NCBI GenBank assembly: GCA_903928075.1 | Contig: CAIYPD010000107.1 | Location: forward strand, 1 to 46,228 | Origin: Candidatus Firestoneibacteriota bacterium | GTDB taxonomy: Bacteria; Oederibacteriota; D2-FULL-39-29 | Reading direction: 5' to 3' | DNA: 46,228 nt | Shown: in pieces, positions 14,249-23,990 of the stretch | Numbering within the stretch: position 1 is the stretch's first letter | Layout: every line of letters starts with the position of its first letter | Notes under the pieces: model-generated | What the model saw: only the letters and a program-made list of their open reading frames with translations | What the model was told of the DNA's origin: nothing | Databases searched by the model: none | Position numbers and translations under genes: made by a program

Positions 14249-14264
14249 ATAAGTGTAGTTGTTT

Positions 14265-14407
14265 TACGGTGTAGGGAAGCCGGTGTGAATCCGGCGCACT
14301 CCCGGTGCTGTGAAAGGGTACGAAATCCTAAGGCCACTGCTCAAAGAAAAGCGGGCGGGAAGGCGGGAGAGTAGGTTATAACCCTTGAGTCAGAAAACCT
14401 TACCGTA
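14265..14407 (+). ncRNA. adenosylcobalamin riboswitch (B12 element)
   Basis: The P1 stem pairs TACGGT (14265-14270) with ACCGTA (14402-14407). Inside are the family landmarks: GGGAAGCCGGTGTGAATCC, the CGGTGCTGTGAAAGGG segment, the GCCACTGC junction (14333-14340), and the B12 box GAGTCAG followed by AAAACCT (14388-14400). It sits between a strong promoter and two terminator-like hairpins, so it should turn the downstream cobamide genes off when AdoCbl is plentiful. Confidence 0.95.
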
Positions 14408-14419
14408 TAACGAAAATAC

Positions 14420-14457
14420 CGCTTCCTTCGCGGAACAAGGAATAAAGCGGATTTTTT
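14420..14457 (+). terminator. hairpin with T-tract just after the riboswitch
   Basis: CCGCTT (14420-14425) pairs with AAGCGG (14445-14450), with an inner CCTT/AAGG pairing, followed by ATTTTTT. It begins about 12 bases after the riboswitch P1 strand, the usual place for an expression-platform terminator. Confidence 0.7.
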
Positions 14458-14528: not shown

Positions 14529-14623
14529 ATTTTGTGGATCATAAAATAAGACAATAGATGAAGAATAATAAAATCTTTTACCTTACAAACTTTAAAACTT
14601 TATAAAATCGAAGCAGGAGACAG

Positions 14624-15448
14624 ATGAAGATCGGTATTGCGCTGTGGAATATTAGAAAGAAATCTATAGTGGAGTCAATTGGAAATGTAGCTTCGCTGGG
14701 ATTTACCGCGGTAAGTTTTCTCGGGAGTTCATTCGAAGAGGAGAGCGAAAAAGAAGTTGTTGCTGCTATTAAAAAGCATAAGTTGGCGGTAACTTTTCAT
14801 CTCGCTTTTTTTTCTATGAGAAAAAAGAGATTTTTGAAGGACCTAGAGACCAGGCTGGATAATATCAAAGCTTTGATAAAGAAAAATAAACTTGAAAAGA
14901 CCGTACTTAATATTTGTTTTGACCCGGCTTTTGATGAGATCGGCAAAAGGCACGAGGTGGTTTATAATTCTACAAACACAATCAAGGCTTTAAAATTCAC
15001 GCTAAAGCATATTAAGGATGTAAAAGTCGGGATAGAAAACTGGACGGTTAACTCGAAAATAGAGGATTTTGAAATCATCGCTAAAAAAATAAAATCAAAA
15101 CGCCTGGGTCTTCTTTTAGATATCGGACATATGCATATTGCGGTTAACAAAGGAATAATAGACCGCGAAAATCTTTCCCAATATGTAAGGGCGCTGCCCC
15201 TGCCGGTTTTTGAATTACATATACATGATAACAACGGCGAGGAGGATTCTCATTTGCCGCTTGGCCGGGGAACAATGGATTATGCGGCCGTTTTCAAAGA
15301 ACTAAAAAAATCAGGGAAAGTTGATAAAAATTGCGTGGCAACGCTTGAAATCAAACCGCATATGAAAAATATAAGACTTACGGATGCGCAGAGGCGCAGA
15401 GAAGTGGTGCGCACAAGAAAAATTGTAGACGGGGCATTCAATAAATGA
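14624..15448 (+). CDS. cbiR: xylose-isomerase-like TIM barrel, probable cobamide-remodelling phosphodiesterase CbiR
   Basis: A 274-residue AP-endonuclease-2/xylose-isomerase-like TIM barrel. Metal-site residues typical of the fold are visible: the GIENW strand, LLDIGHMHI, ELHIHDNNGEEDSHLPLG and LEIKPH. Alone this would be a generic sugar isomerase/epimerase. Its position as first gene behind an AdoCbl riboswitch, with its stop overlapping btuC in ATGA, points to CbiR. That TIM-barrel family cleaves the nucleotide loop of cobamides to release a cobinamide-level product for rebuilding with another lower ligand. CobU, CobT and CobS for that rebuilding lie downstream. The assignment to CbiR rests on fold plus context, not on a unique motif. 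AGGAG precedes the ATG. Confidence 0.72.
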   Translation: MKIGIALWNIRKKSIVESIGNVASLGFTAVSFLGSSFEEESEKEVVAAIKKHKLAVTFHLAFFSMRKKRFLKDLETRLDNIKALIKKNKLEKTVLNICFDPAFDEIGKRHEVVYNSTNTIKALKFTLKHIKDVKVGIENWTVNSKIEDFEIIAKKIKSKRLGLLLDIGHMHIAVNKGIIDRENLSQYVRALPLPVFELHIHDNNGEEDSHLPLGRGTMDYAAVFKELKKSGKVDKNCVATLEIKPHMKNIRLTDAQRRREVVRTRKIVDGAFNK

Positions 15449-16467
15449 GCAATAAGTTTAGAATATACATTCTCCTGGGCCTGGGCCTCCTACTTCTGAG
15501 TCTTGTGGCGGGTATTTTTATAGGAAGCGTTTACATAGAACCTTTATCCGCCGTTAAAATGCTGCTCTCTAAAATTCCCTATTTGAAAGAAAGTATTTCT
15601 GTTACCTGGGAAGGAAATATAGAAGATATTCTTATGAAAGTTAGAATACCCCGGGTCCTGCTTGCGCTTATAGTAGGAGCCTCGCTTTCGGTCTCCGGCG
15701 CGGTCTTTCAGAGCTTACTTAGAAATCCTCTGGCTGACCCGTATCTTCTCGGCGTTTCCAGCGGCGCGGCTCTCGGCGCGGCAATAGTTATATTAACGAG
15801 CCTGCCATTTTTCTTTTTTGGCGTTCCCATCGTTCCTCTTTCGGCGTTTGCGGGAGCACTGCTTTCTATGTTCTTAGTTTACGGCCTTGCAAAAACAAAA
15901 GGCAAACTGCCTATGCACACGCTTCTACTTTCAGGAGTAATAATTAACTTTTCTTTTTCTGCAGTAATCATGCTCCTGATTACGCTGTCAAACAAGGGAC
16001 TTTCAGAGGTGATTGTCTGGATGATGGGTACTTTGAACAATACCAACTATGAACTTCTTCCCTATGTTGCGCCGGTTGCGCTTGTCCTTATGGCGGTAAT
16101 ATATATGTTTTCAAATGATTTAAATGTTATAGCCGTAGGTGAGGAAAGCGCTGTTTATCTCGGGGTCAAAACCGAAAATGTTAAGAAGTGGCTCTTTATA
16201 CTTAATTCCTTACTGACAGCCCTGGCTGTCTCGGTAAGCGGACTTATCGGCTTTGTCGGGCTTATTATCCCGCATATTGCCAGGATGATAGTCGGACCTG
16301 ATCACAGAATATTAATCCCTTTCTCGGCTATTTGCGGTGGAATATTTCTGGTGCTTTCTGACACTTTATGCCGGTCGATTATTTCTCCGGCTGAGATACC
16401 CACCGGGGTGGTTACCGCTATACTCGGCGGGCCGTTCTTTTTGTATTTATTAAAGAGGAAAAAATGA
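15445..16467 (+). CDS. btuC: vitamin B12 ABC transporter permease BtuC
   Basis: A 340-residue FecCD-type permease with about ten transmembrane helices. SVSGAVFQSLLRNPLADPY, GVSSGAALGA and the GLIGFVGLIIPHIAR coupling segment are the family hallmarks. It forms the membrane channel of a metal-chelate/cobamide importer. FecCD permeases for iron siderophores look alike; the B12 assignment comes from the riboswitch and the surrounding cob genes. The start overlaps the upstream stop (ATGA) and the stop overlaps btuD (ATGA). A periplasmic binding protein (BtuF) is not present in the window. Confidence 0.9.
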   Translation: MSNKFRIYILLGLGLLLLSLVAGIFIGSVYIEPLSAVKMLLSKIPYLKESISVTWEGNIEDILMKVRIPRVLLALIVGASLSVSGAVFQSLLRNPLADPYLLGVSSGAALGAAIVILTSLPFFFFGVPIVPLSAFAGALLSMFLVYGLAKTKGKLPMHTLLLSGVIINFSFSAVIMLLITLSNKGLSEVIVWMMGTLNNTNYELLPYVAPVALVLMAVIYMFSNDLNVIAVGEESAVYLGVKTENVKKWLFILNSLLTALAVSVSGLIGFVGLIIPHIARMIVGPDHRILIPFSAICGGIFLVLSDTLCRSIISPAEIPTGVVTAILGGPFFLYLLKRKK

Positions 16468-17216
16468 AAATACTCGAAGCGAAAGACATATCATTCGGGT
16501 ATGATAAAAAAGAAGTTCTAAAAAATATAAATCTTAGTGTGGAAGAAGCCGATTTTCTGGGTATTATCGGCCCCAACGGCTCGGGTAAGACGACGCTGCT
16601 AAAGATGCTTTGCCGGGGTCTGAAACCCGGGCAGGGAAAAGTACTTTTTAAAGGCGAGGATATTTTCCGTCTGGATACCAGATTCGTCGCAAAAAATATT
16701 GCGATGGTTCCGCAGGACGAAAATATTATTTTCCCGTTCACTGTTTTTGAAATCGTTATGATGGGGCGCTCTCCCTACATCAACCGGTTTTCCTGGGAAA
16801 AGAAAGAGGATGTTAACATAGTCCACTCGGCCATGAAACTGGCGGATGTTTTACGGCTCAGGGACAGAAATATAGATGAATTATCCAGCGGGGAGAGGCA
16901 GCGGGTCTTTATAGCCAGGGCTCTGGCGCAGATGCCAAAGGTGCTTTTACTGGACGAACCGACCAGCCATCTTGACATTAATCATCAAAGAGATGTACTG
17001 GAACTAATAAAAAAACTCAATGAGAATGTCAAAATTACCGTAATAATGATTTCGCATGATATTAACCTGGCGTCAAAGTACTGTAAACGGCTGGTTCTTT
17101 TAAAAACCGGAAAAATATTTACAGAAGGCAGCCCGAAGAAAGTAATCACCAAAAAGGTTATCAAGGATGTTTACGGGGTGAAGGTAGAGCTCGTAAAGGG
17201 GAATGTTCTCTTATGA
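16464..17216 (+). CDS. btuD: vitamin B12 ABC transporter ATPase BtuD
   Basis: A 250-residue ABC ATPase. It has Walker A GPNGSGKTT, a Q-loop in the MVPQDENIIFPF region, the signature SSGERQR, Walker B LLLDEPTSHLD and the switch histidine in ISHD. It powers the BtuC channel. It is coupled to both neighbours by four-base overlaps, which supports one polycistronic mRNA for cbiR-btuC-btuD-cobO. The same family serves siderophore uptake, so specificity is by context. Confidence 0.92.
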   Translation: MKILEAKDISFGYDKKEVLKNINLSVEEADFLGIIGPNGSGKTTLLKMLCRGLKPGQGKVLFKGEDIFRLDTRFVAKNIAMVPQDENIIFPFTVFEIVMMGRSPYINRFSWEKKEDVNIVHSAMKLADVLRLRDRNIDELSSGERQRVFIARALAQMPKVLLLDEPTSHLDINHQRDVLELIKKLNENVKITVIMISHDINLASKYCKRLVLLKTGKIFTEGSPKKVITKKVIKDVYGVKVELVKGNVLL

Positions 17217-17746
17217 TGCTAAAGAAAGGACTGGTCCAAATATACTCAGGCGAGGGGAAGGGAAAGACTACTGCGGCCTTTGGTTTGGCTCTTCGTGCGG
17301 CTGGAAACGGTTTTAAGGTGGCGATTTTTCAGTTTTTAAAGGCAAAAGGTAATAAGACCGGTGAACTTGCGCTGGCAAAAAAATTTAAAAATGTAATAAT
17401 ATTCAGGAACGACCAGACGCATCCTATCTTCAAAAAGAGTATCAAAATGGATGATTTACGGCATAACGCGGAAATGCTATGCGCAGAAGCGAAAACAGCG
17501 GTATTGTCGGGAAAATACGACATGGTCGTAATGGATGAGATAAATAACTGTATGTGCGGCAGGCTTATAGAGGTAGAGGAAGTACTTTCAATTATAAAGC
17601 AAAAACCAATGCATGTAGAGTTAGTTTTGACCGGCAGGAGCGTTCCCGAGGAAATAGTCAAGGCGGCAGACCTGGTGACCGAAATGAAGATGGTTAAACA
17701 TCCGTACGAAAAGGGCATAAGCGCGAGGAAGGGAATAGAGTACTAA
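17213..17746 (+). CDS. cobO: cob(I)alamin/corrinoid adenosyltransferase, CobO/BtuR type
   Basis: A 177-residue P-loop enzyme that transfers adenosyl from ATP to the Co(I) corrinoid. The modified Walker A GEGKGKTTAAFG, the MDEINNC segment and the LTGRSVP motif identify the CobA/CobO/BtuR family rather than the unrelated PduO or EutT families. It overlaps btuD by four bases. Adenosylation directly after import fits the locus, since CobU and riboswitch feedback act on adenosylated forms. Last gene of the tightly overlapping first block. Confidence 0.93.
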   Translation: MMLKKGLVQIYSGEGKGKTTAAFGLALRAAGNGFKVAIFQFLKAKGNKTGELALAKKFKNVIIFRNDQTHPIFKKSIKMDDLRHNAEMLCAEAKTAVLSGKYDMVVMDEINNCMCGRLIEVEEVLSIIKQKPMHVELVLTGRSVPEEIVKAADLVTEMKMVKHPYEKGISARKGIEY

Positions 17747-17750
17747 CAAG

Positions 17751-17870
17751 TACAAGGCACAAAGTACGAAGTAGATTATGCGGAAAGCGGACAAGAGTGT
17801 CCGTGAAAAATAATTAGATATTGGCGGAGTTTTTTAGCCGCCTATAATAGTTTGTACTTTGTACCTTGTA
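17751..17870. repeat. 120-bp element with 17-bp terminal inverted repeats
   Basis: TACAAGGCACAAAGTAC at 17751-17767 is the inverse of GTACTTTGTACCTTGTA at 17854-17870 with one mismatch. Inside are the perfect hairpin CGGACA-AGAG-TGTCCG (17788-17803) and a GGCGG/CCGCC pairing (17823-17842). The layout is MITE-like, but it could also be a structured RNA or a terminator between cobO and the next gene. Confidence 0.6.
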
Positions 17871-17920
17871 TTTAATACTTTTCGTGTGGTGTAGCAAAAT
17901 ATTGCAAAAAGGAAGTTTTA

Positions 17921-18601
17921 GTGATCAAACAAAATTTTGGAAGAACATCGGTGGCTTCTTGGTCGGGGGGGAAGGACAGTTGCCTGGCGCTTTACAAGGC
18001 GCTTAAGGACGGGTATGAAGTAAAAAAGCTTATAAATTTTATTTCACGGGACTTGAATCGCTGCTGCTTTCATGGAGTTACTCCTGATATCATAAAACTT
18101 CAGGGGGAGTTGATAGGTATCCCGGTTCTGCAGCCTAAGGTCACCGACGATATGGAAAATTATGAAAGAGAGTTCAAAGAAGGTGTAAAAGCGGTAAAAG
18201 GAATTGGCAGCATGATCTTTGGAGATATCTACCTGCAGGAACATCTGGATTGGATAATTCGGGTTTGCAAAGATATGAATATCTCCCCGGTGGAGCCTCT
18301 TTGGGGTTTGGAAGCAGAAACTATTGCCAAAGAATTTGTTGAGCTTGGTTTTAAAACAATTATTATTTCTGCGCAGGCCGGAAAAATAGGAAAGGAATTT
18401 GTCGGCAGAGAATTTGACAAAAAGATGATAGAGGAATTTAAAAAATTGGGCGTTTGTCCCTGCGGGGAGAACGGCGAGTTCCATACTCTTGTAATCGACG
18501 GTCCGCTCTTTAAACGGCCTATAATAATTAAAAAAGCCGAGACGCTGTTTAAAAAGGGCTTCTGGGAGCACTACTGTTATGAAATAAAAGAATTCGAGTG
18601 A
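17921..18601 (+). CDS. Dph6-like PP-loop ATP pyrophosphatase (diphthine-ammonia-ligase family)
   Basis: A 226-residue N-type ATP pyrophosphatase. The PP-loop SGGKDS is near residue 14. The later segments HGVTPD, EPLWGL and GENGEFHTLVIDGP match the Dph6/MJ0570 family, which in archaea and eukaryotes activates a carboxylate with ATP and amidates it to finish diphthamide. Bacteria do not make diphthamide, so the substrate must differ. The gene lies between cobO and cobT and reads in the same direction. An amide-forming step on a corrinoid or its precursor is one possibility (inference only). The start is GTG at 17921 with AAGGAAG upstream. Confidence 0.83.
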   Translation: MIKQNFGRTSVASWSGGKDSCLALYKALKDGYEVKKLINFISRDLNRCCFHGVTPDIIKLQGELIGIPVLQPKVTDDMENYEREFKEGVKAVKGIGSMIFGDIYLQEHLDWIIRVCKDMNISPVEPLWGLEAETIAKEFVELGFKTIIISAQAGKIGKEFVGREFDKKMIEEFKKLGVCPCGENGEFHTLVIDGPLFKRPIIIKKAETLFKKGFWEHYCYEIKEFE

Positions 18602-18624
18602 AAAAGATGTTTATAAGGTTTGTA

Positions 18625-18716
18625 ATATTTGTAAGCAAAGCTTTTCTCGAGAGGAAGGATATATAGATGTCAACTATCGTTGACATAGCGAGATAAAGTT
18701 TGTAAGGTCTAAAATC
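18625..18716. repeat. inverted element pair, left copy (with GTCAAC...GTTGAC palindrome)
   Basis: About 90 bp matching, in reverse orientation, the segment at 23899-23990. Shared blocks include CAAAGCTTTTCTCGA, GGATATAT, the GTCAAC-4-GTTGAC hairpin (18669-18684) and GAGATAA. The hairpin stem is conserved while its four-base loop differs between copies (TATC here, TTTC in the other copy read in the same orientation). Confidence 0.75.
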
Positions 18717-18765
18717 GTTGAAGGATACTAATAAAATCCTGCGAGCCGTTTTTAGGCGAGACAGT

Positions 18766-18784
18766 CCGCCAAGCTTAAGGGCGG
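18766..18784 (+). promoter_or_regulatory. hairpin before the cobT ribosome-binding site
   Basis: CCGCC and GGCGG pair across a 9-base loop, about 20 bases before the AAGGAG of cobT. It resembles the TCCGCCAAG palindromes at 14494 and 37113. A role in cobT expression is only a possibility. Confidence 0.35.
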
Positions 18785-18813: not shown

Positions 18814-19857
18814 ATGCAAATAGGCAGGTACGATATAAAAATATCGGGAATTGATAAGACGCTTCTTGACGCTACGCAAAAAAGATTGGATATGCTTACA
18901 AAGCCTCTGGGAAGTTTGGGGCGGCTGGAAGAACTTGCAAAGACCGTAGTGGCGATAACGGAAAAGAAAAACCCTGTGTTTAAAAATAAGGTTATAGTTA
19001 CGATGGCGGGAGATCACGGTATTTCCCGCGAAGGCGTATCTGCCTATCCCATGGAAGTAACGCCGCAGATGGTCCTGAATTTTCTAAACGGCGGCGCAGG
19101 AATTAATGTACTGGCCCGGCATATCGGAGCGAAAGTAATTGTAGTGGATATGGGGGTTAACTATGATTTTAAGGGAGCCCCCGGTCTTGTGGATAAAAAA
19201 ATAGGCCCGGGTACAAAGAGTTTTACGAAAGGCCCGGCAATGAGCAGAACTGAGGCTGTCAAAAGCATTGAAGCAGGAATAGATATAGTGCTATCAGAAA
19301 AAGATATTGATATCGTTGGAACGGGGGACATGGGCATCGGAAATACCAGCCCAAGCGCAGCTATTACTTCTATATATACAGGTCGACCTGTAGCCGAGGT
19401 TACCGGCCGGGGAACGGGAATCGACGATAAAGGGCTGAAAAACAAGATAGAACTCATAGAAAAGGGCCTTGCCTTTAATAAACCTGACCCCAAGGATGCT
19501 CTGGATGTGCTTTCCCGGGTGGGCGGGTTTGAGATAGGCGGGCTTGCCGGAGTCATTCTTGGCGGGGCCATGAAAAAAATACCGGTGGTTATTGACGGAT
19601 TTATTTCAACGGCGGCTGCGCTGATTGCGGTAAATATAGAGCCAAAAGCAGGAGAGTACCTGATTTCCTCGCATAACTCGGTTGAAAACGGGCATAAATA
19701 CGCGCTTGAATATTTAAAATTAAGACCCATACTCAATCTTGAGCTCCGTCTCGGTGAAGGCACGGGTGCGGCGCTTTCTATGAGTATCGTGGAAGCAGCG
19801 GTTAAGATCCTTAATGAAATGGCAACTTTCGAATCGGCAGGAGTAACAAGCAAATAA
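18814..19857 (+). CDS. cobT: nicotinate-nucleotide:dimethylbenzimidazole phosphoribosyltransferase
   Basis: CobT activates the lower-ligand base to its alpha-ribotide, used to close the cobamide nucleotide loop. The 347-residue length from the ATG at 18814 is normal. Motifs in order: TKPLGSLGRLE, AGDHGISREGVSAYP, GTGDMGIGNTSPSAAI, GRGTGIDDKGL and the catalytic glutamate E315 in the GEGTGAA segment. The open frame extends upstream to 18718, but AAGGAG directly before 18814 and the family N-terminus support the shorter form. No second riboswitch precedes it, so it either depends on read-through from the first block or is regulated differently. Confidence 0.95.
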   Translation: MQIGRYDIKISGIDKTLLDATQKRLDMLTKPLGSLGRLEELAKTVVAITEKKNPVFKNKVIVTMAGDHGISREGVSAYPMEVTPQMVLNFLNGGAGINVLARHIGAKVIVVDMGVNYDFKGAPGLVDKKIGPGTKSFTKGPAMSRTEAVKSIEAGIDIVLSEKDIDIVGTGDMGIGNTSPSAAITSIYTGRPVAEVTGRGTGIDDKGLKNKIELIEKGLAFNKPDPKDALDVLSRVGGFEIGGLAGVILGGAMKKIPVVIDGFISTAAALIAVNIEPKAGEYLISSHNSVENGHKYALEYLKLRPILNLELRLGEGTGAALSMSIVEAAVKILNEMATFESAGVTSK

Positions 19858-19865
19858 GAAATAGT

Positions 19866-19954
19866 CCAAAGGTCCATAATTGTTCATAAAAGTCCTTAAA
19901 GGAAAGAACTAAAAACATTTATAGACCTTATGGACTTTTACAGACCTTTATGGA
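19866..19954. repeat. degenerate inverted repeat in the cobT-cobU gap
   Basis: The left side (GTCCATA...AAAAGTCC from 19873) and the right side (GGACTTTTACAGACCTTTATGGAC, 19931-19954) are imperfect inverse copies. The right side itself repeats TAGACCTTATGGAC/CAGACCTTTATGGAC. The same vocabulary occurs after uppP. It holds no gene. Confidence 0.5.
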
Positions 19955-19995
19955 CGAGAGAAATTTATAATCCGGGCAGTGGAGGAGTTTTAGTT

Positions 19996-20535
19996 ATGAC
20001 TATAATGAAAAATAGCGGAATGATTTTTATTACCGGAGGGGCTAGGAGCGGTAAATCTTTCTTTGCTGAAAAACTTGCGTTTAAAGCGGGGGCGGACCGG
20101 GTTTATTTGGCAACTATGCAGGCTTTGGACGAGGAGATGAAAGAAAGAATTGCCCGCCACAGAGCCGTCAGGAAAGAAAAGAAGTGGCGCACGGTGGAAG
20201 AGCCGCTTGATCTTTTGAATGTACTTAAAAGGGAAAATAAAAAAAAGAGAGTTATTTTGATAGATTGTCTTACTCTTTGGATTACCAATATGATGTTGAA
20301 AGCTTATTCTGAAAAAGAGATTCTTTCGGCTGCAGAAGCTCTGGCCGGTTTTGCCGGACGCGCCGAGGCACAGGTTATCGTCGTTTCAAACGAAGTCGGG
20401 ATGGGCATTGTGCCGGACAATGTACTTGGAAGAAATTTCCGGGATACACAGGGTCGGGTCAACCAGATTTTCGCTGCGCAAGCAAAAAAAGTATATTTTA
20501 TGGTTGCCGGACTGCCACTGAAGGTGAAAAAATGA
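19996..20535 (+). CDS. cobU: adenosylcobinamide kinase / adenosylcobinamide-phosphate guanylyltransferase
   Basis: CobU phosphorylates adenosylcobinamide and then transfers GMP to make AdoCbi-GDP. The 179-residue protein has Walker A GGARSGKS, the histidine of the GMP-accepting segment RIARHRAVR, TVEEP, the DCLTLWITNM Walker-B-like block and VSNEVGMGIVP. The frame is open from 19930, but those codons lie in repeat sequence. ATG 19996 with GGAGGAG upstream is the better start. The stop overlaps cobS (ATGA). Confidence 0.94.
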   Translation: MTIMKNSGMIFITGGARSGKSFFAEKLAFKAGADRVYLATMQALDEEMKERIARHRAVRKEKKWRTVEEPLDLLNVLKRENKKKRVILIDCLTLWITNMMLKAYSEKEILSAAEALAGFAGRAEAQVIVVSNEVGMGIVPDNVLGRNFRDTQGRVNQIFAAQAKKVYFMVAGLPLKVKK

Positions 20536-21260
20536 AAAAATTCCTTATTGCGCTCCAGTTTCTGACAATTATCCCGGTCCGTTTAAAAAATGTTGAAGAA
20601 AAAGAGTTGTCCGGTTCGGTAAACTACTACCCGGTAGTCGGCCTGCTTATAGGTTTCCTTCTTGCCGGCTCGTGGCTGCTTCTTTCTATTGTTTTTCCTG
20701 TGACGGTTTCAGCACTAGTTGTGACCGGCATTTATCTTCTTCTTACGGGAGCTTTGCATCTTGACGGTTTTGCCGATACGGTAGACGGACTGTACGGGGG
20801 TAGAACCAAAGAAGACATATTCCGTATTATGGAAAGCAGCACAATAGGAGCCAAGGGAGCTGCTTTTACCTTTTTACTTCTTGGCTTGAAGATTATTTTA
20901 ATTTCTTCCCTTTCGACAAAAGCCGTTTATCCTGCTTTAATTCTATTTCCGGTCCTTAGCCGGTATTCTATAACCATACTTATGAAATACTCTGATTATG
21001 CCAAGGAAAACGGACTCGGGAAAGCCTATTGCGGGAAAATATCTAATATTAGTTTCCTTATAATAAACCTTGCTTCTGCCGGAGCAGCGCTGATTTTTGG
21101 CGTAAAAGGCTTGGTTGCTTTTTTGACCGTTGCCCTTATGGCAATAATTATTAAAAACTATTTTAATAAGAAAATAGGCGGTGTGACCGGCGATATTTTT
21201 GGTTTCACAATAGAAACAGCGGAAACGGTTGTTTTATTAATCTTTGTGGCCGGATTTTAA
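20532..21260 (+). CDS. cobS: adenosylcobinamide-GDP ribazoletransferase (cobalamin synthase)
   Basis: A 242-residue integral membrane enzyme that joins AdoCbi-GDP to the alpha-ribazole (phosphate) made by CobT, completing the cobamide. The metal-binding signature HLDGFADTVDGL, then GGRTKEDIFRIMESSTIGAKG, are both clear. About six hydrophobic helices follow. It is coupled to cobU by a four-base overlap. With CobU and CobT it gives the full lower-ligand assembly branch. Confidence 0.94.
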   Translation: MKKFLIALQFLTIIPVRLKNVEEKELSGSVNYYPVVGLLIGFLLAGSWLLLSIVFPVTVSALVVTGIYLLLTGALHLDGFADTVDGLYGGRTKEDIFRIMESSTIGAKGAAFTFLLLGLKIILISSLSTKAVYPALILFPVLSRYSITILMKYSDYAKENGLGKAYCGKISNISFLIINLASAGAALIFGVKGLVAFLTVALMAIIIKNYFNKKIGGVTGDIFGFTIETAETVVLLIFVAGF

Positions 21261-21295
21261 TAGACGGTTTACGAAAAAAACTTTTGGAGGTAAAC

Positions 21296-23152
21296 ATGTT
21301 AAAGAAATTTGTATGGCTCTTGCTCCTTCCGGTCTTGTTTTTTTCTGAGGAGGCAGCTCCGGAAAAAGATTTTTTCCAGCTCGACGAAGTCGTAGTAACC
21401 GGCTCAAGAGTGGAAAAGATGCTCCGGGAATCCCCCGGCTCACTTGCCATAATCAGCGATGACAAAGTAAAAAACGGCGGTGATAAAAATGTTGGGGTTG
21501 CTATATCGGATATAGCAGGAGTCGACTCAAGTAAAATAGGTTTTACCGGACAGACTCAAAATGTAATGATTCGAGGTGTCTCTTCGGAAGGAACCCTTAT
21601 TCTTATTAATGGTGTCCCTTTGAAATCCAGCTATCAGGGCAATGTAGATCTTTCTTCCATTAACCTTGACAATGTAGAGAGAGTTGAAGTTCTTAAAGGT
21701 CCGGCCTCGTCTCTTTATGGGGCAGGTGCCGTCGGCGGGGTCGTTAACATTATTACCAAAGACAAAGTTACGGTTCCATCACTTGATCTAATGGCTCTCT
21801 ATGGTACTTTTCAGACAAAAGACCTCCGGCTTGCATATTCAGGTAATATTTCCGGAATTTCTCTGAACCTGTCGGGTTCCCTCTTTCAGACCGATGGTGC
21901 AAGAGTGAACAGCGATGCTGTTTCAAAAGACTTGAATGGATCAATTGATTATTCGTTTCAAAAAAATAACAATATTCGGATAACATTCGGCGCTTACAAA
22001 TGTGACAGCGGCGCGCCCGGATCAGCCATTGTGTCGAATCCTTTTAACAGACAGCAATTGGAAAAGTCCAATGTGGGTATTGACTACAACTTGCCGTTGG
22101 GAGATGACTCTGGTTTAAAATTTAAAATATATGGAAACAAGAACATTTTGAATTTTCACGCTTCCACTTATGAGACCCTCAGCGAAGAAAGGGACTTTTA
22201 TACTGAAGCCACCTATACTTATGACTTTGGCGGTATTAATGTCATAACTCTAGGGATAAGCGGGGATTATGGAGTGTTGGAGCAGAGCTCGATAGGCTCA
22301 CACAATGCCGCTACTAGATCATTTTTTGCCCAGGACATATTCGATTTGTTGGGTTTCTGGATATTTACAGCATCGGCGCGTTATGACTCTCATACTTTGT
22401 ATGGGGATAGTTTTAATCCCATGTTCTCTCTAGTATATAATATAGATGATGGAGTACAGATTAAGGGGTCTTTTGGAACAGCTTTCAGGGCTCCGACTTT
22501 TTCTGATATATACTGGCCCTACATGAGCGATGTTGATTGGTTGGATCCTACCAAAACAGTAATTACTAAGGGAAATGCTTCTATTGTTCCGGAAAAATCC
22601 ACCTCCTGGGAAGCAGGGCTAAATCTGGAATTTGGCAAAAATGCTACGCTTCGTACTACATATTTTAACAACAGGATAAAAGACCTGATTCAATGGTCTT
22701 CAACGGTTAATACCACCGGTCTTATTACTACCTGGATGCCTTCAAATGTCGGGGAAGCTGAAATATACGGGGTTGAATCCGAATTGAAGGTGATCCCGGT
22801 TCAAAATCTTGATATGCTCGTTTCATATACCTGGCTTAGGGCGATGGATTTGATCGCAAACCTGCCTCTTATTTACAGGGCAAATAATAAGGCAAATGCC
22901 GGAGTATCTTATGGTTTTTGCTGCTGTAAGCTTTCCTTGAATGCGGAATATTATGATATCCGTCCAAACGAATTTGGAACCGCAATGCTCCCCAGCTTTG
23001 TTGTCATGAATGCCAGGTTGGATATAAAAGCTACAAAAGAAATTGCCTTCATTTTCTCGGTGAATAATATAATCGATACTTCTTATCAGCTCAGAGAAAA
23101 TTTTCCTATGCCGGGGAGAAATATAAGCGGAGGAGCAAAATTTAGTTTCTGA
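21296..23152 (+). CDS. btuB: TonB-dependent outer-membrane receptor, BtuB-like
   Basis: A 618-residue outer-membrane receptor. A signal peptide of about 20 residues (MLKKFVWLLLLPVLFF) is followed by a TonB-box-like DEVVVTGSR. The plug domain carries IRGVSSEGTLILINGVP, RVEVLKGPASSLYGAGAVGGVVNIITK, and the beta-barrel ends with a terminal Phe (AKFSF). It should import cobamides, judging by position directly after cobS and before tonB; the sequence alone would not exclude an iron chelate. The TTG at 21284 is part of the ribosome-binding site (TTGGAGG), so the ATG at 21296 is the start. Confidence 0.88.
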   Translation: MLKKFVWLLLLPVLFFSEEAAPEKDFFQLDEVVVTGSRVEKMLRESPGSLAIISDDKVKNGGDKNVGVAISDIAGVDSSKIGFTGQTQNVMIRGVSSEGTLILINGVPLKSSYQGNVDLSSINLDNVERVEVLKGPASSLYGAGAVGGVVNIITKDKVTVPSLDLMALYGTFQTKDLRLAYSGNISGISLNLSGSLFQTDGARVNSDAVSKDLNGSIDYSFQKNNNIRITFGAYKCDSGAPGSAIVSNPFNRQQLEKSNVGIDYNLPLGDDSGLKFKIYGNKNILNFHASTYETLSEERDFYTEATYTYDFGGINVITLGISGDYGVLEQSSIGSHNAATRSFFAQDIFDLLGFWIFTASARYDSHTLYGDSFNPMFSLVYNIDDGVQIKGSFGTAFRAPTFSDIYWPYMSDVDWLDPTKTVITKGNASIVPEKSTSWEAGLNLEFGKNATLRTTYFNNRIKDLIQWSSTVNTTGLITTWMPSNVGEAEIYGVESELKVIPVQNLDMLVSYTWLRAMDLIANLPLIYRANNKANAGVSYGFCCCKLSLNAEYYDIRPNEFGTAMLPSFVVMNARLDIKATKEIAFIFSVNNIIDTSYQLRENFPMPGRNISGGAKFSF

Positions 23153-23216: not shown

Positions 23217-23864
23217 ATGAAGACATTTCTAAGTATATCCATAATAATTCATACTGTTTTTTTTGCGGGGATCTCGCTATTTTCTTCTCATGCCTGGATA
23301 AAAGAGCGGACGCAACCCATTGAAATTTCTTTTTACGAAGGAAAAGGACACCGGCCTGAAAAAACACAAAAAAAAATTGTAAAGATTGTAAAACCGGCAG
23401 AAATATTTCCCATAATAAAACAGGAGATATTTGAAAAAAAGACAGAAGAAAAACTCAGGGAACCTGAAACTTTTTCCGAAGCGCCCTCCATGTTTAAAAA
23501 TGAGACCATAGGCCCGGCGGCCGGACCTGTCGTCCCGGAAGCCGGCTATGGCAGCGGGACTACTGCTGTTGACCCGGAAGTAGCGGCCTGGTTTTCTTCC
23601 GTTAAAGAAAGGGTTGAAAGGTATAAAAAATATCCCAAAAAGGCGCTGGAGGAAAGCATAGAAGGTAAGGTTATCCTTGAAATTACTGTAGAAAGCAGTG
23701 GAATATTAAACAAGGTAAATGTGTATTTTTCTTCGGGAAGCCTGCTTCTGGACGGCGAAGCGGTTCGAACCGTAAAAGTAGCCTCTCCATTCAAGCCCTG
23801 TCCGCTTAAATTAGGCAAATCTGTAACTTTCCGCCTGCCGCTTAAATTTGAAGTTATGAAATAG
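23217..23864 (+). CDS. tonB: TonB energy-transducing protein
   Basis: A 215-residue protein with an N-terminal membrane anchor (residues ~5-25), a Lys/Pro/Glu-rich periplasmic span and a C-terminal TonB domain. The domain shows YPKKALEESIEGKVILEITV, then SSGSLLLDGEAVRTV and a Pro-rich end. It links the inner-membrane proton-motive force to BtuB. ExbB is not in the window; an ExbD-like candidate lies at 30243. There is no clear ribosome-binding site before the ATG. A GC-rich hairpin (GCCGGG...CCCGGC, about 23166-23189) separates it from btuB. Confidence 0.87.
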   Translation: MKTFLSISIIIHTVFFAGISLFSSHAWIKERTQPIEISFYEGKGHRPEKTQKKIVKIVKPAEIFPIIKQEIFEKKTEEKLREPETFSEAPSMFKNETIGPAAGPVVPEAGYGSGTTAVDPEVAAWFSSVKERVERYKKYPKKALEESIEGKVILEITVESSGILNKVNVYFSSGSLLLDGEAVRTVKVASPFKPCPLKLGKSVTFRLPLKFEVMK

Positions 23865-23898: not shown

Positions 23899-23990
23899 AA
23901 GATTTTGGACATTATTGAACTTATCTCGTTTTGTCAACGAAAGTTGACAATGATATATCCTGCTTATCGAGAAAAGCTTTGTTTATAGAC
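23899..23990. repeat. inverted element pair, right copy
   Basis: Reverse-complement counterpart of the element at 18625-18716. It includes GTCAAC-GAAA-GTTGAC at 23933-23948 and GAGAAAAGCTTTG at 23970-23982. Together the two copies bracket cobT, cobU, cobS, btuB and tonB. Confidence 0.75.

Follow-up and report, generated by a model that had tools for sequence, protein, structure and literature searches.

What does an enzyme whose best database match is a diphthine-ammonia ligase do in the vitamin B12 operon of a bacterium? The question is raised by a gene at positions 17921..18601 (+ strand) of the window, the whole stretch of 46,228 nucleotides of a Candidatus Firestoneibacteriota genome (G000) analysed here. 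The open reading frame is intact and encodes 226 residues; it starts with GTG, closely preceded by the ribosome-binding site AGGAAG. The product scores 186 bits with Pfam Diphthami_syn_2 (PF01902), whose cut-off is 23, and carries the PP-loop ATP-pyrophosphatase motif SWSGGKDS at residues 13-20 (17957..17980, + strand), which bears out the claim of an earlier note on this DNA that it is an intact SGGKDS PP-loop protein. The genome holds a single copy of the gene, and its dN/dS of 0.12 between the two genomes of the genus indicates that it is under purifying selection. The AlphaFold2 model of the protein (pLDDT 93, pTM 0.90) retrieved PH1257 (2D13) and ATP-bound PF0828 (3RK1) as top PDB matches in Foldseek, with E values of about 1e-19, and it aligns with 3RK1 over the full length (TM 0.86). 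As modelled, the DUF71 protein has an intact PP-loop active site on a Dph6 fold.

The DUF71 gene is the fifth of a run of genes on the same strand (+). The run opens with a gene for a TIM-barrel protein (14624..15448, PF01261, 77 bits), followed by btuC, encoding a corrinoid ABC permease (15445..16467, PF01032, 321 bits; best NCBIfam match BtuC, below its cut-off), btuD, encoding the ABC ATPase (16464..17216), and the ATP:corrinoid adenosyltransferase gene cobA/cobO (17213..17746, PF02572, 202 bits; TIGR00708 over cut-off). Downstream of DUF71 lie cobT (18814..19857, PF02277, 452 bits; TIGR03160 over cut-off), whose ATG start was placed by alignment with the sister genera since the listed frame opens at 18718, cobU (19930..20535, PF02283, 212 bits; NCBIfam over cut-off), cobS (20532..21260, PF02654, 176 bits; TIGR00317 over cut-off), a gene for a BtuB-like TonB-dependent receptor (21284..23152; best NCBIfam match TIGR01779, TonB-B12, 185 bits, below cut-off) and one for a TonB-like protein (23217..23864, PF03544; TIGR01352 over cut-off). 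At the head of the operon is a cobalamin (AdoCbl) riboswitch (14250..14421, + strand, Rfam RF00174, 88.2 bits), which the earlier note had not described. Its statements that the gene lies between cobO and cobT on the same strand and belongs to a B12 locus are thus confirmed, by the flanking genes for both and by the btu and cob neighbours and the riboswitch for the latter.

Regarding the first gene of the operon, its product belongs to the AP_endonuc_2 superfamily, as CbiR does, and orthologues 74%, 75% and 43% identical occupy the same place in the operons of genomes G007, G008 and G002, respectively. It scores 24 bits with the CbiR model NF041277, far below the cut-off of 105, and could represent a diverged phosphodiesterase of cobamide remodelling.

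The DUF71-B12 subfamily of COG2102/PF01902 was predicted in 2012 to function in B12 salvage and was defined by the motif ENGE[F/Y]H (de Crecy-Lagard et al., PMC3541065). In the window protein, residues 182-189 (18464..18487, + strand) read GENGEFHT and align with GEGGEFET of PF0828, so that the Dph6 residue Glu188 is replaced by His; Ala181 is replaced by Cys. Among 26 aligned sequences of the window type, G16, G17, K18, D19, H51, Y81, G101, P126, W128, G162, C181, G182, E183, G185, E186, H188, V191 and P195 are invariant, the invariance of C181, G182, E183 and G185 being in part a product of selection because relatives were gathered with a pattern holding PCGENG, to which H188 is external. 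The protein thus combines SGGKDS on a DUF71 fold with ENGE[F/Y]H, a btu/cob neighbourhood and a genome lacking CbiZ, which is likewise absent from every bacterial carrier tested. It differs from the subfamily as described in 2012 in that its gene sits inside a cobA-cobT-cobU-cobS run and that its clade occurs mostly in salvage-only genomes without CbiB, the 2012 argument having centred on CbiB-bearing genomes (PMC3541065). The shared features strongly argue that the window protein is a new member of DUF71-B12.

That it could instead be a true Dph6 (EC 6.3.1.14) is suggested by the common Pfam family and by its best NCBIfam match, the archaeal Dph6 model TIGR03679; the full-length fold and the ATP-binding residues are shared with PF0828 and PH1257. 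However, the NCBIfam match, at 146.6 bits, falls short of the cut-off of 197.3, the catalytic Glu188 is lost, and the residues that PMC3541065 places at the EF-2 interface, S44, E78, Y103 and Q104, correspond to R47, Y81, E107 and H108. Moreover, bacteria lack diphthamide as well as Dph2 and Dph5 (PMC3541065). A Dph6 activity is therefore rejected as virtually untenable. The earlier note was right to expect a bacterial function other than diphthamide synthesis, but its label 'Dph6-like' is misleading, given the replaced catalytic and EF-2-contact residues, and its view of the gene as a candidate for an undescribed activity is overstated, the subfamily and its role in B12 salvage having been published in 2012. 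Neither the family nor its connection with salvage is thus new; the novelty lies in the constraints on the reaction. No later biochemistry of DUF71-B12 was found in the literature searched.

The earlier note had proposed counting how often bacterial homologues neighbour btu or cob genes or lie under AdoCbl riboswitches. In a tree of 91 proteins, built without the sequences of the 2012 tree, the window protein is separated from PF0828/PH1257 by a branch of 2.24 and falls in a clade of eight (support 98/93) with proteins from Omnitrophota, Thermodesulfobacteriota, Atribacterota and Lentisphaerota. These members were picked by similarity and not by context, and seven of the eight lie among cob genes in B12 operons, the eighth, L021, being near a contig end. 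When all 27 window-type loci were considered, cob genes were present within 8 kb in 14. Conserved same-strand neighbours within 6 kb were without exception B12 families: BtuB-like receptors (11 loci), CobS, CobT, BtuC and BtuD (8 each), CobU (7), and CobC-like phosphatases and BtuF (6 each). Cobalamin riboswitches lie upstream in L018, L020, L022, L023, L038, L048, L082 and L092, with no gene between the riboswitch and DUF71 in L038 and in L082 (Prolixibacter bellariivorans, a cultured carrier). Both parts of the proposed association were thus borne out. Two kinds of immediate neighbour recur: cobT adjoins DUF71 in the window, L020, L022, L036, L049, L050, L063 and L092, and btuF, btuD or the BtuB-like receptor gene does so in L018, L019, L023, L025, L032, L036, L038 and L082. 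In L029 (9974-14117, a Marinisporobacter MAG), genes for a NifH-NifD-like fusion and for another nitrogenase-like component come after the window-type gene, possibly a different cofactor setting.

A second bacterial DUF71 group, marked by SMHGVR, forms a large separate sister group in the tree (60 sequences, support 100/100). Both types have Cys181 and His188, and several SMHGVR members lie near cobalamin riboswitches and TonB receptors; a riboswitch was found near all nine members that had been preselected for a nearby BtuB-like receptor or B12 genes. By contrast, His108, Trp111 and Cys116 of the window type are replaced in this group, and its loci mostly lack cob genes: 6 of 57 have them at a distance of up to 8 kb, compared with 14 of 27 for the window type. 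In the phylum of the window, the SMHGVR type occurs in genomes without CobS (G010, G011, G031 and G033), which implies that it need not serve cobamide synthesis. It should be noted that both types are present within one B12 locus in L023, L048, L084 and L092, which suggests that they perform different tasks in one pathway.

Although CobS was found in 17 of the 35 genomes of the phylum, the window-type DUF71 is present in only two, G000 and its congener G006. G007 and G008, from sister genera, and G002, from another family of the order, contain the riboswitch and the series TIM barrel-btuC-btuD-cobA-cobT-cobU-cobS-btuB with nothing in the gap between cobA and cobT. Homology with G008 (L139) ends at about 17773 and restarts at about 18784, local alignments holding on both sides, so that the segment missing in the sister genera, approximately 17774..18784 (+ strand), delimits a probable inserted DUF71 cassette. 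We therefore regard the roughly 1 kb that carries DUF71 as an accessory insertion in this genus, repeated losses being the less likely alternative. Furthermore, the segment btuD-cobA-DUF71 is 94.8% identical between G000 and G006, and identity drops from 95% to 66-82% exactly past the DUF71 stop codon (window 16682-18603 compared with L013), to about 82% in cobT, about 66% from cobU to tonB and about 81% in the following genes. The dS values are 0.18 for DUF71, 0.38 for cobA and 1.07 for cobT. From these sequence comparisons, the half of the operon bearing DUF71 (btuD-cobA-DUF71) appears to have been recently exchanged between the two congeners.

The gap between cobA and DUF71 holds a long imperfect hairpin (17744..17920, + strand; MFE -55.4 kcal/mol, z -6.1), also present in G006. 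Its arms are rich in AGTAC, and similar AGTAC repeats were seen in the cobA-cobT gap of G008 and in the DUF71-cobT gap of G006. An 85-nt intergenic repeat occurs after DUF71 (18632-18716) and, in inverted orientation and 80% complementary, after tonB (23901-23985); part of it recurs at 14573-14594.

The other corrinoid enzymes of the carrier genomes delimit what DUF71 could do. No match to CbiB, CbiZ, CbiC or CbiP was obtained in G000, and the best CobD match reached 215 bits against a cut-off of 290, from which it follows that this bacterium only scavenges corrinoids. The genomes of L018, L019, L020, L021 and L023 show the same absences, L022 alone in the clade having CbiB, CbiP and CobD; since metagenome bins are incomplete, each single absence is weak evidence, but the pattern recurs. 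CbiB is also absent from the congener, from L025 and from the Bacteroidota carriers L048, L049, L050, L084 and L092, and it is present in L032, L038, L082 and several Chloroflexota, Clostridia and archaea. CobD exceeded its cut-off only in CbiB-positive genomes. This occurrence of DUF71 in genomes with and without CbiB makes it a poor substitute for either CbiZ or CbiB. Some of the reactions suggested for DUF71-B12 are thus excluded in a scavenging-only host.

Among these, a CbiZ-like amidohydrolase role was one of the 2012 proposals (PMC3541065): DUF71 would replace bacterial CbiZ on pseudo-B12 or other cobamides, cutting the aminopropanol amide to yield adenosylcobyric acid. In line with the anticorrelation of DUF71-B12 and CbiZ across genomes (PMC3541065), no bacterial DUF71 carrier tested had CbiZ, the four CbiZ-positive carriers being archaea; yet CbiZ is rare, with one occurrence in the 35 genomes of the phylum, so that the anticorrelation is weak evidence. 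The re-use of cobyric acid needs CbiB, which G000 and most of the clade lack, and the product would therefore be a dead end, which speaks against this leading proposal. A PP-loop ATPase would also be an odd hydrolase, as the reviewer Aravind pointed out. CbiZ equivalence is thus disfavoured, and we consider it most unlikely. The lack of CbiB in most of the clade would instead suit an ATP-dependent replacement of CbiB itself, joining aminopropanol (phosphate) to cobyric acid, and amide formation suits PP-loop chemistry. Nevertheless, many DUF71-B12 genomes possess CbiB, G000 has no above-cut-off CobD as a source of aminopropanol phosphate, and the operons of the sister genera, which lack both genes, are otherwise complete; this function is disfavoured and judged quite unlikely. 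Replacement of CbiR was rejected since a true CbiR (256 bits) and DUF71 share one operon in L020. The remodelling enzymes CbiR and CbiZ resemble DUF71 in operon setting and likely purpose, the use of foreign corrinoids, but belong to unrelated families.

Given how frequently cobT lies next to DUF71, the strongest rival is a lower-ligand or nucleotide-loop step on the CobT side, in which DUF71 would activate a carbonyl of the base or nucleotide, for example to aminate an oxo-purine lower ligand. PP-loop enzymes of other kinds act on base carbonyls, and in L024 DUF71 lies 14 bp after purQ. In L032, L038 and L082, however, DUF71 adjoins uptake genes instead of cobT, and Dph6, the closest characterised relative, uses a carboxylate. 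We hold a lower-ligand step, the alternative offered in the earlier note, to be unlikely, even though the frequent neighbour cobT would equally suit it. As for replacement of the alpha-ribazole phosphatase CobC, the window operon lacks cobC and the genome contains elsewhere one distant His-phosphatase with no cob genes beside it. Yet CobC-like His-phosphatases accompany DUF71 in the clusters of L018, L023, L025, L050 and L092, those of L018 and L023 matching alpha-ribazole phosphatase best, just under the cut-off, and in the sister genera neither cobC nor DUF71 is part of the operon. PP-loop proteins are not known to act as phosphatases. Replacement of CobC was therefore rejected as highly improbable.

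Taken together, these results make a role of the DUF71 protein in B12 scavenging very probable. As to its particular chemistry, we tentatively favour, at somewhat less than even confidence, adenylation of a carboxylate followed by amide formation on a scavenged corrinoid. DUF71 would adenylate a carboxylate of an imported corrinoid with ATP, releasing PPi, and would transfer an amine or ammonia to the activated carboxylate to restore an amide; corrinoids that had been partly hydrolysed could then enter the CobA-CobU-CobS route. Such amide repair, which the earlier note had suggested, is one possible form of the candidate ligase reaction. It is supported by the invariant PP-loop and ATP-site residues and by a fold equal to that of ATP-bound PF0828, a Dph6, whose product is an amide made from a carboxylate (PMC3541065), but His in place of the catalytic Glu may mean a different chemistry. 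Because btuF, btuD or the BtuB-like receptor gene often adjoins it, DUF71 probably acts early, on imported material, and the completeness of the operon without DUF71 in sister genera is as expected of a step that repairs corrinoids or widens their range. No other corrin-amidating enzyme was found in G000, where CbiP, CbiB and CbiC are all absent. Since CbiP is present in 11 of the 27 genomes tested, and cbiP is directly beside DUF71 in L032, missing corrin amidation does not generally account for the presence of DUF71.

DUF71-B12 proteins are widespread, and databases still match them best to diphthine-ammonia ligase. The operons described here provide a natural comparison, one riboswitch-headed operon with DUF71 (G000 and G006) and without it (G007, G008 and G002), all in genomes lacking CbiB, and in the carriers G000 and G006 neither de novo synthesis nor CbiP nor CbiZ is present as a confounder. 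The comparison eliminates several candidate reactions and directs attention to substrates at the level of cobinamide or cobamide rather than to cobyric acid. We give an even chance to the view that DUF71-B12 modifies scavenged corrinoids in an undescribed ATP-dependent reaction, be it repair of an amide, ligation of aminopropanol or conversion of the lower ligand, which would widen the range of corrinoids open to a B12 auxotroph, and that the gene spreads from one bacterium to another as a cassette added to B12 uptake operons.
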